Assembly: GCA_005799265.1 (NCBI GenBank)
Contig: SYHD01000217.1
Span: 1-42,366, forward strand
DNA: 42,366 nucleotides
Reading direction: 5' to 3'
Source of the DNA: Planctomycetia bacterium
GTDB taxonomy: Bacteria; Planctomycetota; Planctomycetia; Gemmatales; Gemmataceae
Shown here: in pieces, positions 306 through 9,708 of the stretch
Position numbering within the stretch: the first letter of the stretch is position 1
Layout: each line of letters starts with the position of its first letter
Translations under genes and position numbers: made by a program
Notes under the pieces: generated by a model
Seen by the model: only the letters and a program-made list of their open reading frames with translations
What the model was told of the DNA's origin: nothing
The model's database searches: none

Positions 306-333
306 TTGACATGTACAAAAGAACACATATATT
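306..333 (+). promoter_or_regulatory. Sigma70-type promoter of the ATPase-kinase-regulator operon
   Basis: A perfect -35 hexamer TTGACA (306-311) is followed after 16 bp by TATATT (328-333), one mismatch from the -10 consensus. Transcription would start near 340, giving a leader of about 135 nt before the ATG at 476. The promoter overlaps a possible upstream start at 311, which argues that the ATPase starts at 476 instead. Confidence 0.6.
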
Positions 334-475
334 TGGTGTAGCCTGGCTGCGATCTCCGCAATTGGAACCAGGAACTCCAAGGACGACCTGTAAGCATATT
401 TGGGTTTCACCAGACTTCGCCGACCCGCGCCCTGCGCCTCGGACCTTCGAAATCCTGGTGCTTGGAGCCAGTCCC

Positions 476-2347
476 ATGTCTCACCGTATTCGTTCGCTCT
501 CAATCGTTGGCGGCTTTCTGGACGGCGCCAGTTTCGATCTCGGTGACGGCCTGAATTGCCTCATCGGCGCGCGCGGTGCCGGCAAAACCACGGTGATCGA
601 GTTCGTCCGCTACGCCCTTGATGAATTGCCGAATCGAGAGTCCGACCCACAGGCACGACGGCGAATCGAATCGCTCGTGGAACGGAATCTCGGCAACGGT
701 CGGATTCAACTCGTTGTCGAAACCAAGGATGGCTTGTCATACATCGTCAACCGTTCACCAGGCGAGAATCCAATGGTCCTGTCTCCGGATGGTAAGCCAA
801 CGGGCATCACACTGCGGGCGGGAAGCTTGTTTCAGGTCGACATCTACAGCCAAAACGAAATCGAGGGACTGGCCGAGCGAGCGGAGGCGCAGCTGGCGCT
901 CATTGACAATTTCCACTCGGAGCAAATCAGGGTAGTAGCAACCGAAACGCAGCGCCTTATCTTCCAGATGCGAGCAAACGCCAATCAGATCATTCCCCTC
1001 GAGGAGAAGCTTGCTACGCTCGCGGAGGATATTCACACGCTGCCCAACGTCGAGGACAAGCTGAAGGCGTTCATCGGAACGGCCAAAGAAGCCTCCCACC
1101 CCATCGACGAAGCGCACGCACATAAGGCTTTGCGGGATCGCGAGCAGGCGGCCATTCGCTGCACAAAAGAGCTGCTCGGCGATCTCGCGCCGAGTTTGCA
1201 AAGCATGTGTGGGCAAATCGACGAGCAGGTCAATTCCGACCTTGACCGCGATATTCTCGCGGGACCCAACGGCGCAACCTTTTCGGAGCTGAAACGAACA
1301 CTCGCTCGGTGCGCCGGAGAAGTCGACCGGCTCCTGGAGCTTGCATGTGAGCACATCCGCAGGGCATCCGAGGATTTGGCGGCGGTTTCCACCGCGTTGG
1401 CACACCGCCATGACCAACAGGAACTGGCATTCCGCAAGCTGATCGAGAAACACAAAATTGCGCAGGGACAAGCCAACGAACGCGCCCGGTTGGAAAAGCT
1501 GCGCGGCGATCTCCTTGTCAAACAGCGGTTGCGGAATGAGCTGCAACAGAAACTGGACCAACTCCGCGAGGAACGCATCGATCTGATGCGTCGCCTTTCC
1601 GAGATGAGAGATCAACGATTCGCGCTCAGGCAGGAGGTCGTGGGCCGGATCAATCAACAACTATCCCCTTCGATTCGAGTCAGTATCGAACAAGACGGCG
1701 AACGGACCACGTACCGCAAGATGATCGAGGAAGCCCTTAAAGGCGCCCGCATGAGGCAGGGCCGCGTGGCCGACAAGATAGCCGAAGCGTTCGCACCCGG
1801 CGATTTGTCTGAAGTGGTCAAATCCGGCAACTCGCGCGCTCTCGTCGACAAAGCCGAGCTGACACCCGACCAGGCAGACAAAGTCATAACCGCATTCGCC
1901 GACAGTCCCAACCTTCTGGAATTGGAGACCCTCGAGATGCTTGACCTGCCACGAATCGAGTTGAAGGACGGCGTCGCCTACAAGGAACTTGCGTCCTTGT
2001 CGACGGGCCAGCGCTGCACCGCGATCTTGCCTATCCTGCTCCTCGACAGCGAAAAGCCGCTGCTCGTCGATCAGCCCGAGGACAATTTGGACAACAGCTT
2101 CATTTACGAAACAATTGTGAGGAGCATACGCAAGATCAAAAAACAACGGCAGCTGCTGTTCGTTACCCACAATCCAAACATTCCCGTCCTGGGGGAGGCG
2201 GAGCGCGTGTTCGTGCTGACCTCCACCGGGAACAGCGGCAGAAAGTCCAGGGAGGGATCGGTGGATGGATGTCGCAATGAGATCGTCCAGCTCCTCGAAG
2301 GCGGGGAGGAGGCATTCAAGTTGCGTCAGCGGCGATATCGTTACTAA
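476..2347 (+). CDS. SMC/RecF-like coiled-coil ABC ATPase
   Basis: This is a 623-residue cytoplasmic ATPase of the ABC/SMC/RecF class. The Walker A loop GARGAGKTT is at about residues 31-39. The signature LSTGQR (Ser about 509), the Walker B segment LLVDQPEDNLDN (Asp about 532) and the H-loop FVTHN (His about 565) lie near the carboxyl end. A long charged coiled-coil region (roughly residues 300-400) separates the two halves, as in DNA-repair ATPases; no zinc-hook CxxC is seen. I chose the ATG at 476 because GGAG at 464-467 precedes it and the promoter at 306-333 excludes the longer frame. It is followed after 26 bp by a histidine kinase and then a response regulator. In this protein class ATP hydrolysis drives clamping on DNA or signalling conformations. 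The substrate here is unknown. It resembles the ATPase half of TrlF-like and other orphan defence ATPases. Confidence 0.85.
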   Translation: MSHRIRSLSIVGGFLDGASFDLGDGLNCLIGARGAGKTTVIEFVRYALDELPNRESDPQARRRIESLVERNLGNGRIQLVVETKDGLSYIVNRSPGENPMVLSPDGKPTGITLRAGSLFQVDIYSQNEIEGLAERAEAQLALIDNFHSEQIRVVATETQRLIFQMRANANQIIPLEEKLATLAEDIHTLPNVEDKLKAFIGTAKEASHPIDEAHAHKALRDREQAAIRCTKELLGDLAPSLQSMCGQIDEQVNSDLDRDILAGPNGATFSELKRTLARCAGEVDRLLELACEHIRRASEDLAAVSTALAHRHDQQELAFRKLIEKHKIAQGQANERARLEKLRGDLLVKQRLRNELQQKLDQLREERIDLMRRLSEMRDQRFALRQEVVGRINQQLSPSIRVSIEQDGERTTYRKMIEEALKGARMRQGRVADKIAEAFAPGDLSEVVKSGNSRALVDKAELTPDQADKVITAFADSPNLLELETLEMLDLPRIELKDGVAYKELASLSTGQRCTAILPILLLDSEKPLLVDQPEDNLDNSFIYETIVRSIRKIKKQRQLLFVTHNPNIPVLGEAERVFVLTSTGNSGRKSREGSVDGCRNEIVQLLEGGEEAFKLRQRRYRY

Positions 2348-2373
2348 CCCCCCCCAAATCGGTGCTGCTCGCC

Positions 2374-3528
2374 ATGCTGAACGATACACTGGTCCAACTG
2401 ATGGGAGACCGTGAGAGTATGCCCTGGCACGAGCGCCGGAGTCTCGTGAACCGGATAGGCGAAACGCTCCGACGCCAGGGCGACGACCGGGACGCATTGG
2501 CACTCGCGCATGTCCTTGCCGAGGATCCGAAATGGGAAGTACGGCAAGCTGTAGGCGACATTCTGCCGATATTGCCCCGCGACGAGTTCATGGCACTGGC
2601 GAGCGAACTGGCCAACGACAGTAATTCGTTCGTGCGCCAGGCCGCGGAACGAGCTCTTGAGCGGCGGCGTGAAGGGACGCGATGGCAATCCCGGACGAGG
2701 AGCTGTATCGAGCAAACCCAGAATGATCTTCTCGTATTCGAGCGAATGTACGGAAAGATAGCGGCGGAGAACGCTCGCGCCATCGCCGAACGCTGGTTTG
2801 AAATCTTGGTTGCATCCACCGTTCACGAGATCAAAGGAATCCTTTCGCCACTGGCGGCCACGGTCACGCGATTGCACCGATCGGAGAGTCGAAACTCACT
2901 CGACAATGGGGTGGTCAGTGAAGGGCTTGCGAAGATGAAAGATCGGATCGCTTTTCTGGAACGCCTGGTGATGGACATGCGGGACTACTCGAGGTCCGTG
3001 CCGCCTGGTCGGCGATGCGCGCTACTCTGCGCGATTATCGCCGAGGCGCAGAGCCTCGTGTTCGAGAATTTGCAAGCCAATGGGCTCGACTCCTCGCCGG
3101 TGCGGTTGTTTGTGAACGTGCCGAAAGGGATTCAGGTCCGAGTTGCTCGACACCAGGTGGTGGCAGCCGTCAAGAACGTCTTGAAAAATGCCTACGAGGC
3201 GTATTTTCGCGAGAACCGAGGCCTTGTCGCTGGCGAGGTCCATGTCCGCGCCGACATCGTAGCGGACAATGTGCGAATCATCATTCAGGACAACGGGCCG
3301 GGGATGGCCGCAGTCGACCTTCGTGAGGTCCAAGGCTTTGTGCCGGGGAGAACCAGCAAGAAAAACCGGGGCACAGGATTCGGGTTGCCGATTGCTCGAA
3401 GGTACATCATGGCCCACAGAGGCAAAATTGACATTGAAAGTCGCGAGATGGGCGGCACGAAAGTAACGATCATTCTGCCGCTTGGATTGGAGGATCCCAA
3501 CGATGACGACGAAAGCACTGATCATTGA
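2374..3528 (+). CDS. Soluble sensor histidine kinase with HEAT-like N-terminus
   Basis: This is a 384-residue kinase with no signal peptide or membrane segment, so it senses a cytoplasmic cue. Residues about 35-100 look like two HEAT-type helical repeats (WEVRQAVGDILP and SFVRQAAERALE), a protein-protein interaction scaffold. The phosphoacceptor is His151 in the H-box VHEIKGILSPL. The ATP-binding domain has the N-box LKNAYEA (about 270), the D-box DNGPGM (about 306) and the G-box GTGFGLPIA (about 333). All key residues are present. A GTG at 2362 is an alternative start; neither start has a clear ribosome site, and a run of eight C lies just upstream. The 3' end overlaps the response-regulator gene by 26 bp, which indicates translational coupling. 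The HEAT repeats may read the state of the neighbouring ATPase (inference). Confidence 0.88.
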   Translation: MLNDTLVQLMGDRESMPWHERRSLVNRIGETLRRQGDDRDALALAHVLAEDPKWEVRQAVGDILPILPRDEFMALASELANDSNSFVRQAAERALERRREGTRWQSRTRSCIEQTQNDLLVFERMYGKIAAENARAIAERWFEILVASTVHEIKGILSPLAATVTRLHRSESRNSLDNGVVSEGLAKMKDRIAFLERLVMDMRDYSRSVPPGRRCALLCAIIAEAQSLVFENLQANGLDSSPVRLFVNVPKGIQVRVARHQVVAAVKNVLKNAYEAYFRENRGLVAGEVHVRADIVADNVRIIIQDNGPGMAAVDLREVQGFVPGRTSKKNRGTGFGLPIARRYIMAHRGKIDIESREMGGTKVTIILPLGLEDPNDDDESTDH

Positions 3529-4627
3529 GGATGATCCACTGATTGCAGAGGATGTTGGTGATATTCTCACCTCCCTCGGCCATACATACGATTACGCCGA
3601 TTGCCTCGAGACAGCTCGCGCTCGGCTTGCGGCGGAAAGATACGCCTACTACCTCGTCGATCTGGAAATCCCAGTCCGCACAGGCCGTGGTTTGCCTCGC
3701 ATCCAGAACGGCGAGAATCTCCTTGAAGAAATCGCCCAGCGCTTCGCCGGACGTAAGCCGCCAGTCATTGTGATCACGGCGCACGGCCGAGATGGCCCCG
3801 ACTTGGCCGTCGAAGTCATGAAAAAGGGCGCTTTGGACTTCATCACCAAACCATTTCCGACTACGGGCAATACGCTGGACAAGAAAATCACCGAGGTGTT
3901 GGCCCGCAGCCGGCCGCCTTCCCCGCTCAGGCAGTCGGCACCGGAGCACGTTGGCGAACCGACTCCGTTTCTCGGCGGAGACCTCGTGTTCTTTGCGGAG
4001 CGAGTGGAACTCTGCGGAATCAAGGTTTGCGGTGGGCCTCGCAACGGCCAGATTCGGAAGGTATTGGATATTCTGCGGCAGAAAAACGCGAGCGGAAAAT
4101 ACCCCGCTTACAGCGGCACCGAGTTGGCGGACGAGATCGGCGCCCACGGCGGCCAGAACGGAATTGCTGGCTGTATTCGCAATTTCCGGACGAACGTAAC
4201 CAGAGTCCTTCGGGAAGAAGCAAGTATGCTCTGCGGTCCGCACGATGTGATTCAGAGCGGTGGGGCCGGATACCGGCTTGCCGAGTGGATCACGGTCCGC
4301 AACGGCGAGCCAGGTTCGGCAGGCTCATCGCCTGCCGGTCAAACGCCGGGAAATGTCCACGACGCACGCACCGACAATGGTGATCTAGGTCATGACCTAG
4401 ATCATGAACAAGATCATGACCTAGATCACGCCGCCCCAGGTGAACGCCGCCGTGCCTGGATCATCGCGCGGCTTCGCGCTGGCCAGCAACTTCGTGTGCC
4501 GGCGATTGCGCGAGGATTGAAATGTTCCGCAGCCACGGCAAAACGCGAGCTTGAAGTTTTGAAAAGTCAGGGACGGATCGAGTTCGTCGGCAGCGCGAGG
4601 ACCGGATTCTACCGCCTGAAGGCGTAG
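3503..4627 (+). CDS. Response regulator with two winged-helix-like output regions
   Basis: The 374-residue protein begins with a receiver domain (about 1-130). It has an acidic pair at Asp10-Asp11, phosphoacceptor Asp53 (LVDLEIP), switch Thr92 and conserved Lys116 (FITKPF), so it should be phosphorylated by the kinase it overlaps. The loop after Asp53 is longer than usual. Residues about 160-262 end in QSGGAGYRL, which resembles the wing of OmpR-type DNA-binding domains. A low-complexity Asp/His linker (about 293-309) then leads to a second helix-turn-helix-like region (about 312-374: VPAIARGLKCSAATAKREL), of the kind used to recognise DNA. The start ATG at 3503 lies inside the kinase gene. 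The linker is encoded by a 24-bp tandem repeat listed separately. The operon direct repeat at 286-302 is a candidate target. Confidence 0.85.
   Translation: MTTKALIIEDDPLIAEDVGDILTSLGHTYDYADCLETARARLAAERYAYYLVDLEIPVRTGRGLPRIQNGENLLEEIAQRFAGRKPPVIVITAHGRDGPDLAVEVMKKGALDFITKPFPTTGNTLDKKITEVLARSRPPSPLRQSAPEHVGEPTPFLGGDLVFFAERVELCGIKVCGGPRNGQIRKVLDILRQKNASGKYPAYSGTELADEIGAHGGQNGIAGCIRNFRTNVTRVLREEASMLCGPHDVIQSGGAGYRLAEWITVRNGEPGSAGSSPAGQTPGNVHDARTDNGDLGHDLDHEQDHDLDHAAPGERRRAWIIARLRAGQQLRVPAIARGLKCSAATAKRELEVLKSQGRIEFVGSARTGFYRLKA
4381..4428. repeat. 24-bp tandem repeat with perfect palindrome inside the regulator gene
   Basis: Bases 4381-4404 form a perfect 24-bp palindrome with the core GGTCATGACC. 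Bases 4405-4428 are a second copy, identical at 21 of 24 positions and less palindromic. The period is a multiple of three, so it encodes two 8-residue Asp/His-rich units (DLGHDLDH and EQDHDLDH) between the two output regions of the response regulator. It may be an operator, a recombination-prone repeat or a metal-binding linker; the sequence alone does not decide. Confidence 0.85.
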
Positions 4628-4785
4628 ACCGTTCAAATCCGGTCTCCTGGCCGATCACGCCGGACATCACGCTGGCCGTTTCGTAAATTGAACAATGGCT
4701 TGCCATTGTGGGTCCGGGCGAAGGCAGGCCGCCACGTATTCGTTAACCAATGGTTCAAACGAGTGCCAGTCGCCCCGACATCGGT
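4628..4785. other. Gap after the regulator operon, small hairpins only
   Basis: No gene is seen between the regulator stop and the terminator. A 6-bp stem with an 8-base loop spans the stop codon (4626-4645), and a short hairpin made of ACAATGG and CCATTGT lies at about 4692-4709. Neither has a T-tract. The strong terminator follows at 4786. Confidence 0.4.
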
Positions 4786-4822
4786 AAGCCTTGTCGGGAA
4801 GCAATTTCCGACAAGGCTTTTT
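4786..4822 (+). terminator. Rho-independent terminator of the ATPase-kinase-regulator operon
   Basis: AAGCCTTGTCGGGAA (4786-4800) pairs with TTTCCGACAAGGCTT (4805-4819) through 15 base pairs, including one G-T wobble. The tetraloop GCAA is of the stable GNRA type. A T-run follows directly. It ends the plus-strand operon about 160 bp past its last stop codon. Read from the other strand there is no T-tract, so it should act mainly on the plus strand. Confidence 0.85.
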
Positions 4823-4945
4823 CCTCCTCTTGGTCTACTCCGACGGCAAGGGTAGAGTTGAGTGTCAGCAGAACGTCGGGTTCCGGCGCAATGGCGAACG
4901 CGATGCACAAGCGCTGCTGCTGGCCCAAAGTACTCAGCTTGTTCT

Positions 4946-8350: not shown

Positions 8351-8544
8351 CTCAACATCCTACGGCGTGAAGATTAGTTGCGAGCACGCAGAAGAAGCAT
8401 CGTAGAGGCCTGGTGGGATTTTCGGATCATTGTACTGCCGAGGAACTGGTCGGAACATAGAGCGATCGCAAGGCAAATGGTCGCCAAGAGATCGCAGGGA
8501 ACATATCGTAGGCGATGAGACACGTTGTCAACCTGGAGCATTCG

Positions 8545-9708
8545 ATGAAATCCCTATTTGGTAAATCTCGATGTCTCGCGCTCCCCTGTGTGCTTGCCCT
8601 TCTCGCTGTGAATCCCGTTCTCGCGCAGAAGGAGGCCAAGGAAAGCGCAGCGTTTTTCAAGAGCGACAAGATCGTTCACCTCAGCATTGAGATCGGCTCG
8701 AAACCCATCTCCCTTTTGCGCCTCGATCCTCGAAAATACGTCACGGCCACATTGACTGAAGACGACGTTGTTTATCCGGATATCGGAGTTCACGTCCGGG
8801 GCGGTCTAGGCAGCTTTCGACCCATCGACGGCAAGCCAGGCCTCACGCTCAACATGAACAAATTCGGCGAGGACAAGCTCTTTCACGGCATGGATAAATG
8901 GCACCTCTGCAACTCCGCACAGGATCCTAGCTATCTCAGCGAGTTCATCTGCGGCGAGTTGATGCGTGCCGCGGGCGTTCCCGCTTCCCGCATCCATCAT
9001 GCTGTCGTCAAGCTGAATGGCCGTCAGCTCGGCATGTATTATTTGAAAGAAGGCTACGATAAGCACTTTTTGAAAGAGCACTTCAAGAACTCAGACGGCA
9101 ACGTCTATGATGGCGGCTTCTTACGCGATATCGATCAGCCGCTTCAACTCGTGAGAACCAAGGACGATGTCAAGGATTGGGCCGACCTCAAGGCCTTGAC
9201 CGCAGCGGCCCGGGAACCTGACTTGAAAAAGCGTTTTGCGAGTCTCGAAAAACTACTCGACATGGATGTCTTCATCAGCGGTTTCGTCTTGCAGGCCATC
9301 CTCGGCGACTGGGACGGATATGTCTTCAATCGCAACAACTATCGCATTTACCACGACCCCAAACGCGACAAGATCATCTTCATCCCATCGGGCATGGATC
9401 AAGAGTTCGGCAACGCCGTGCAGGGCCCACTCTTTCCGCCGATGAATGGCCTCGTCGCCAAGGCCGTTCTGCAGACGCCGGAGGGCCGGGCACGCTATTT
9501 GAAACGGATGGCGGAGATCAACACGACGATCATGGTTCCGGAACGCTGGCACAAACGGCTTGATGAACTCCAGGCACGCGTGCAGCCCGAACTCACGAAG
9601 CTCGATGCCGTCGCCGGCCGTGATTATGTGAATCAGGTCAAGCGCATCCGCAACTTCTTCCGCGATCGCCCCAAGAGCATCGAGCGGCAACTCAAGGCGA
9701 CGAAGTGA
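8545..9708 (+). CDS. CotH-kinase family exported protein
   Basis: This is a 387-residue protein with a signal peptide (LALPCVLALLAVNPVLAQ). It carries the CotH-type atypical kinase fold: an early VRGG motif, the helix segment PSYLSEFICGELMRAAGV, then DWDGYVFNRNNYRIY and the metal-site motif IPSGMDQEFG. The last replaces the more common WDLDxxFG but keeps the Asp. CotH of Bacillus phosphorylates spore-coat proteins; planctomycetes carry exported homologues of unknown substrate. I chose the ATG at 8545 because it sits directly before the signal peptide; a start at 8515 would add a hydrophilic leader. It is divergent from the glycoside-hydrolase-like gene, with a 194-bp shared upstream region. 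Confidence 0.85.
   Translation: MKSLFGKSRCLALPCVLALLAVNPVLAQKEAKESAAFFKSDKIVHLSIEIGSKPISLLRLDPRKYVTATLTEDDVVYPDIGVHVRGGLGSFRPIDGKPGLTLNMNKFGEDKLFHGMDKWHLCNSAQDPSYLSEFICGELMRAAGVPASRIHHAVVKLNGRQLGMYYLKEGYDKHFLKEHFKNSDGNVYDGGFLRDIDQPLQLVRTKDDVKDWADLKALTAAAREPDLKKRFASLEKLLDMDVFISGFVLQAILGDWDGYVFNRNNYRIYHDPKRDKIIFIPSGMDQEFGNAVQGPLFPPMNGLVAKAVLQTPEGRARYLKRMAEINTTIMVPERWHKRLDELQARVQPELTKLDAVAGRDYVNQVKRIRNFFRDRPKSIERQLKATK

Follow-up and report, generated by a model that had tools for sequence, protein, structure and literature searches.

The SMC-like ATPases JetC (Wadjet) and LmuB (Lamassu) work with nuclease partners. In Photorhabdus, trlF is described in an operon with trlG, which encodes a protein combining AlbA_2 and HATPase_c_4 domains, and with a small putative regulator gene (PMC7554251). 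Detocs is presented, in the sections consulted, as a three-gene system built around a two-component relay, and its best-described effector there is an ATP-cleaving PNP (PMC11249213). Here we analyse a three-gene set, hereafter the triad, coding for an SMC/TrlF-like ATPase, a HEAT-repeat histidine kinase and a response regulator. It is located in the window, i.e. the whole 42,366 bases of the Planctomycetia contig SYHD01000217.1 (C182), which belongs to an assembly of 372 contigs with a completeness of 87%. The three genes are one co-inherited unit. As the first-pass annotation had supposed, no named system with the ATPase, kinase and regulator set was found in the literature searched, which was mostly open-access.

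A scan of the window for open reading frames (ORFs) gave three intact ORFs in the same direction on the forward strand: the ATPase (476-2347, 623 residues, assigned with Pfam, NCBIfam, an AlphaFold2 model and a fold search), the kinase (2374-3528, 384 residues, in a frame open from GTG 2362, assigned with Pfam) and the regulator (3503-4627, 374 residues). The ATPase stop and the kinase ATG are 26 bases apart, and the regulator start overlaps the kinase end by another 26 bases, so that the operon with overlapping kinase and regulator genes described in the first-pass annotation holds. The ATPase is likely to start at ATG 476 rather than at the first in-frame ATG, 311, because the full-length matches of most relatives open at query residues 1-5 and because ATG 311 falls within the match to a promoter. 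This sigma-70-like promoter, TTGACA-16-TATATT (306-333, forward strand), agrees with the consensus at 11 of 12 positions and is a consensus match only; scanning 7 kb, 6 sites with at least 9 matches were obtained against a mean of 2.3 in shuffled sequence. At the other end, an intrinsic terminator is predicted at 4786-4825 (forward strand), with a hairpin at 4786-4819 followed by a U-run. Its folding energy of -26.1 kcal/mol (z -6.2) was equalled by none of 200 shuffles; the hairpin is absent from a separate pattern-scan listing. These two signals agree with the single promoter and single terminator proposed earlier.

Using the ATPase as sole query, 80 genome loci were retrieved. The kinase was directly downstream in 73 of them and the regulator in 69. 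Among the seven loci with no kinase, two end within the ATPase gene (L023, L079), one is an ATPase fragment (L076) and four belong to Myxococcota. Four further loci lack the regulator: three stop at a contig end (L009, L016, L019) and one is broken (L073). We also calculated distance correlations over 79 triads, which were 0.90, 0.79 and 0.79 for the (ATPase, kinase), (ATPase, receiver) and (kinase, receiver) couples, respectively; none of 2000 permutations, with relatedness left in, reached the observed values. Going by record titles together with kinase and regulator matches, triads were found in Planctomycetota, Verrucomicrobiota, Lentisphaerota, Alphaproteobacteria, Magnetococcales, Myxococcota, Gemmatimonadota and one Neomarinimicrobiota. 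The records are for the most part metagenome bins, in which single taxon placements may be wrong.

The ATPase matches the TrlF family NF045780 with an E-value of 9.7e-92, over profile positions 289-944 of 944. This corresponds to the SMC-like ATPase half of the family, which is present in the window. No match to profile positions 1-288 was obtained, and no PHP domain was detected in the Pfam scan of the window ATPase, which reported AAA_23 and AAA_21. We take positions 1-288 to be the PHP domain, partly on the ground of a weak PHP match under cut-off (E-value 2.6e-4) in L093, a longer relative and the sole long form tested. The score of 309.2 bits is below the curated cut-off of 350, and the ATPase is not assigned to TrlF because both the N-terminal part and the cut-off score are missing. 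By its profile matches it appears to be a member of a TrlF/Ppl-type branch devoid of the N-terminal part, instead of a DNA-repair-type ATPase in the generic sense that the first-pass annotation gave to it. The SMC-like character stated there was borne out. The AlphaFold2 model (mean predicted local distance difference test score, pLDDT, of 87.1; predicted template modelling score, pTM, of 0.71) has as nearest folds SMC heads, MukB, Rad50, JetC, RecN and LmuB, with modest query TM-scores of 0.24-0.42 among the 50 matches listed. The Pfam matches, the model and the fold search together show a split ATPase head with a coiled coil, as in SMC, Rad50 and RecF-like proteins.

The active residues had been described as intact, which is right for all but one of them. 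The Walker A motif GARGAGKTT (residues 31-39, 566-592, forward strand) has its lysine K37 in 75 of 75 aligned rows; the signature Gln, the Walker B Asp and the H-loop His are likewise kept. In the Walker B and D-loop segment LLVDQPEDNLDN (residues 529-540, 2060-2095, forward strand), Gln takes the usual place of the catalytic Glu. D532, Q533, P534 and E535 are each found in 81 of 81 rows (80 relatives and the window), and a narrow pattern search found the DQPED-type Walker B also in long forms. We considered this Gln as a family-wide mark and rejected it: in a wider set Gln occupies the position in 140 of 144 rows and Glu in 4, including 3 complete triads. The latter, L088, L089 and L090, read DEPEGNLDN where nearly all other rows read DQPED. 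Judging from these alignments, both residues occur in systems that look intact.

The same linkage holds outside the 80 genome loci. Viral contigs yielded 51 ATPase loci, made of 34 short forms, i.e. forms of the window's kind, and 17 long PHP-type forms of 840-1035 residues. All three genes were found in 28 of the 34 short-form loci; of the remainder, five stop at the edge of their contig (L113, L116, L117, L134, L141) and one is a fragment (L144). Among the 28 viral triads, L137 has a short regulator frame, L114 nearly duplicates L115 and L112 is the same as the Chthoniobacter flavus locus L020. In the long viral forms no kinase or regulator match was obtained (0 of 17; L156 is cut just past the ATPase). 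Within the phylum of the window, 47 of 294 genomes had any match. In 10 of them the match was full-length, at 33% identity or more, and its frame was too short to be a long form; the class of the window, with 21 genomes, has 2 such cases. The distribution is patchy, with at most 4 copies per genome. Nine of the 11 short-form loci of the phylum (L082-L092; six of the nine already counted among the 80 genome loci) carry kinase and regulator, L091 and L092 being remnants. In L089 the kinase frame is split into two ORFs, the triad being otherwise complete. For the 18 loci L093-L110, judged from their open frames to be mostly long forms with some fragments, no kinase or regulator match was detected in flanks of only about 1.5 kb. 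Joint conservation in relatives, which had been set as the test of the proposed system, was thus observed in bacterial genomes and viral contigs.

The final ATPase tree, built without L101-L110 and L156, places 121 short rows on one side of a branch and 16 long forms on the other, with a support of 67. In a tree drawn with those rows included, five Myxococcota rows labelled as lacking the kinase fall inside the triad branch; one of them, L079, is merely cut by its contig. L092 was considered as a possible ATPase-kinase fusion giving proof of contact. Its single ORF joins in frame ATPase profile positions 59-386 to kinase positions 173-380; it has no Walker A, Walker B, HEAT or phospho-His, and we rejected it as a decayed copy.

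The kinase is a HEAT-repeat histidine kinase, as first described. It matches HATPase_c with an E-value of 4e-19 and, at residues 15-96 (2416-2661, forward strand), HEAT_2 (PF13646) with an E-value of 4.2e-6, at 27.4 bits slightly below the 27.7 cut-off; the matched domains cover most of its length. HEAT residues R57 and D82 are kept in 74 of 74 rows. The phospho-acceptor His151, in the motif VHEIKGILSP (codon 2824-2826, forward strand), is found in 73 of 73 rows, the single gap being the broken L073. The N box residue N272 (73/73) and the G box residues G335 and G337 (72/72) are equally invariant. On the regulator side, the receiver was detected with Response_reg (3e-14), and D10 (70/70), the phospho-acceptor Asp53 (70/70; codon 3659-3661, forward strand) and K116 (69/69) are all kept. 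With phospho-His, N, G1 and G2 boxes, receiver Asp and Lys in place, the kinase and regulator would qualify as a two-component pair.

The AlphaFold2 model of the regulator (mean pLDDT 87.6, pTM 0.47) contains two folded segments after the receiver, in keeping with the double winged helix of the first-pass annotation. They are an OmpR/PhoB-like winged helix at residues 157-268 (3971-4306, forward strand), also supported by fold matches, and a C-terminal winged helix at residues 306-374 (4418-4624, forward strand), connected by a linker, residues 272-304, predicted to be disordered. The top full-length solved fold matches are the OmpR-type regulators VanR, KdpE and MtrA. No Trans_reg_C match was obtained with Pfam on the regulator, and the C-terminal domain gave weak HTH_11 and HTH_DeoR matches below cut-off. 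Some branches have shorter regulators of about 250-310 residues. By eye, the stretch coding for the linker contains palindromic, repeated DNA around CTAGGTCATGACCTAG (4381-4430).

A second output was found on plasmids. The plasmid search returned 1106 records with any match, of which 128 covered 80% or more of the query at a single place. The five that were opened (Klebsiella, Leclercia, Caballeronia, Rhodococcus and Vibrio; L162-L166) encode a short ATPase, a small kinase whose N-terminus lines up with the last portion of the HEAT region, and a protein joining a receiver to an APH/TCAD9-like domain (Pfam scan of four of the five regulators). In all five, the kinase retains its His and the output its motifs H-[GA]-D-L-H-G-x-N and D-[FY]-G-D, and the five ATPases form a single branch with a support of 100. 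The APH-type regulator matches 47 plasmid records, of which 36 are Piscirickettsia (regulator match only). Two long plasmid forms were also opened and had no such kinase or regulator annotated as neighbours. Mainly because this sensor pair is constant while the output varies, we read the ATPase and the HEAT kinase as the input of the system.

From these observations we propose, with a probability of about 0.5, that the triad is a conflict module spread by horizontal transfer, in which an SMC-like ATPase that senses DNA would gate a phosphorelay whose output can be exchanged. The ATPase would clamp the kinds of DNA that typify an invading or damaged genome, namely ends, structures or replication intermediates. 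In its ATP-bound form it would dock on the HEAT domain and switch the kinase, the signal running from there to the regulator as His151 passes its phosphate to Asp53. The winged helices of the regulator would then bind DNA and alter the transcription of the operon itself and of adjoining phage or defence genes, and on plasmids ATPase and kinase together would switch an APH-like kinase instead. The likely beneficiary would be the mobile element, reacting to competing or damaged DNA.

Several observations weigh against this proposal. The upstream side of the window ends at the contig edge, so that a mobile element of its own is not visible. Four Myxococcota loci (L072, L074, L075, L077; 34-35% identity) have room downstream of the ATPase and carry neither kinase nor regulator, and L091 is a lone ATPase remnant. 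Shared ancestry alone could yield the high distance correlations. Receivers of the plasmid branch show no evident counterpart of the Lys that is invariant in the main branch. No operator-like array was found upstream of the window's ATPase, where 271 of 279 control windows reach the window's value. Finally, a transcription factor as sole output is unusual for a defence system.

Genomic neighbourhoods were analysed on both the bacterial and the viral sides. Among the immediate bacterial neighbours, from which proteins above 1200 residues had been excluded beforehand, 96 of 109 were scanned, the 13 omitted ones being mostly short or at contig ends. Pfam detected WYL (9), resolvase (7), ResIII (5), phage integrase (4), sigma-54 activators (4) and AAA_24 (3), and PADLOC models matched, among others, BrxL (L002) and DrmD- and DrmA-like helicases. 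As a control, we took ten genomes of the same class as the window, whose taxa differ from those of most triad loci, and used 96 of the 141 proteins encoded in 20 stretches of them. The 25 commonest families of these 96 proteins, a list beyond which families seen once could fall, include no WYL, resolvase, ResIII, integrase or BrxL. Because the neighbours vary from locus to locus, we consider the triad a self-contained module. Single loci have an AAA_13 protein (L003), an Old/GajA-like ATPase (L037) or an argonaute-type match (L031) nearby. A WYL-cluster gene, in either orientation, lies about 90-220 bases upstream in L031, L032, L045, L047, L053, L056, L057, L058, L080 and L140 (the last assigned by eye) and 1.8 kb from the triad in L060. 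A sigma-54 activator-like gene is found within about 0.2 kb in L053, L058, L064 and L070, and at 5.6 kb in L063; RtcR/PspF-like PADLOC models match four neighbours. In the Nannocystis loci L074, L075 and L077, the gene following the ATPase clusters with a protein of L046 that looks by eye like a Ser/Thr protein kinase. In the window itself, an ORF at 8515-9708 resembles, also by eye, a CotH-type protein. Domain scans of 30 of the 34 short-form viral records (L115, L134, L141 and L144 omitted) detected Phage_portal_2 in 15, resolvase in 12 and tyrosine integrase in 3. On these domain matches, at least half of the viral triad records are tailed-phage sequence. The defence-island context expected in the first-pass annotation was therefore recovered in part, with restriction, BREX and WYL neighbours, the phage context being equally prominent.

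The triad could be a regulator of defence islands that senses foreign DNA and turns on neighbouring restriction, BREX or DISARM-like genes. BrxL in L002, type III restriction-modification genes near the triad in L003 (two genes off), L008 and L027, and type I restriction upstream of it in L006 and L015 speak for this role, which we nevertheless judge unlikely, since the neighbour changes by locus and many copies have other neighbours. A role as life-cycle switch of the element appears nearly as likely as the conflict module. The triad would then be a two-component stand-in for a CI-type repressor: it would hold phage early genes off and, once the ATPase senses damaged DNA or stressed replication, release them. 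This role may apply to the phage branches, the island copies serving defence. PHROGs matches in the 116 of 137 viral neighbours scanned include Sak4-like annealing proteins (15), sigma factors (11), integrases (6), DNA invertases (6) and exonucleases (5), with helicases and SSB in addition, and of the 29 viral loci for which a rough gene caller placed a gene upstream, 22 have it on the opposite strand. We also searched the 200 bases upstream of the ATPase in 73 loci of at least 7 kb, each against its own control windows, for arrays of a 9-base word with one mismatch allowed. Ten loci, nine of them distinct, were in the top 5% of their own windows (3.7 expected) and 6 in the top 1%. In these Verrucomicrobia and phage loci the word, in four to six copies, differs by locus: TGATACCGG-like in L020 (same as L112), L036 and L043, ATGGG-bearing or similar in L042, L123 and L124, TCCAAGGTT-like in L121, and CCCACATAG- and AAGCCTATG-like in L126 and L134. 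All ten fall within two tree branches of 7 and 10 rows joined at an unresolved fork; L116 and L117, in the same branches, are outside the top 5%. A k-mer shared by all 86 upstream regions was sought and discarded, as little emerged except runs and relics of close kin. The arrays resemble a phage immunity region with putative operators. Against the life-cycle role, 63 of the 73 loci, including the window, are outside the top 5%, and several Planctomycetota copies adjoin restriction or BREX genes. Above the cut-off, HTH_3 was detected in 4 of the 30 viral records with a triad and in 8 of 17 long-form records (Fisher p 0.016), which favours a repressor role of the triad; counting weaker matches the contrast is 6/30 against 8/17, and it is weak in any case, as the records are fragmentary and their host groups differ.

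It is improbable too that the ATPase is itself the effector, the kinase-regulator pair merely controlling its expression. Its TrlF-type relative Ppl bears an anti-phage name in NCBIfam and PADLOC; against this, the triad branch is devoid of the N-terminal part of TrlF/Ppl proteins, and the enzyme-like domain of the plasmid regulators indicates that the output sits at the regulator. An ordinary two-component pair beside an unrelated ATPase gene has for it only the commonness of such pairs, and conservation over several phyla together with the correlated distances refutes it in practice. A bolder reading, less likely than not, sees in the triad a novel type of mobile signalling machine: an SMC-type DNA clamp would act as sensor of a histidine kinase whose one receiver has been rewired in evolution between a transcription switch, set in a phage immunity region whose operators differ by locus, and a kinase effector on plasmids. 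This reading would include a two-component phage switch replacing the CI-type repressor.

If the conflict module is real, its phosphorelay is fed by an intracellular DNA-clamping ATPase and turns the condition of DNA into a two-component signal. The triad would connect defensive two-component systems with phage switches and with ATPases of the TrlF type, and its design, in which the sensor stays constant while the output can be exchanged, is open to direct test.

Compared with described systems, the triad shares with Detocs, in the sections of its description consulted, three genes around a two-component relay. Those sections mention no ATPase sensor, and the output of the triad would be DNA binding, or APH-like in the plasmid branch. 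No ATP-degrading effector domain (PNP) was found among the Pfam and NCBIfam matches of the window triad, which is not placed in Detocs because the best-described effector of that system is missing. A fused protein from defence neighbourhoods combines, as the triad does, a kinase-type ATPase domain with a winged helix; that protein also carries an RNase in the same chain and, unlike the triad, has neither receiver nor SMC-like ATPase in the part of the description available. The Ppl models (NF042955 and PADLOC Ppl) show similarity to the ATPase, the best stretch being C-terminal (E-values 1.6e-35 and 1.8e-25), and are 882-894 positions long, whereas the triad has a 623-residue ATPase and two partners. 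The regulator, as modelled, has the receiver and the first winged helix of the OmpR/PhoB family (KdpE, VanR, MtrA), to which it can be assigned by that fold. It differs from the family by its second, C-terminal winged helix on a disordered linker, and the system differs by a partner kinase that would be gated by an SMC-like ATPase. JetC and LmuB have the same ATPase head and coiled-coil fold; unlike in their systems, no nuclease partner turned up among the three genes. The Photorhabdus trl operon is like the triad in its ATPase half. As far as its published description was consulted, it has an AlbA_2-HATPase_c_4 protein where the triad has a histidine kinase and a receiver; in the ATPase of the triad no PHP domain was found, and its score is under the TrlF cut-off. 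The trl operon is an instructive cousin of the triad, which operates like a two-component system with an ATPase that is, by its fold, like an SMC-type DNA-handling protein.

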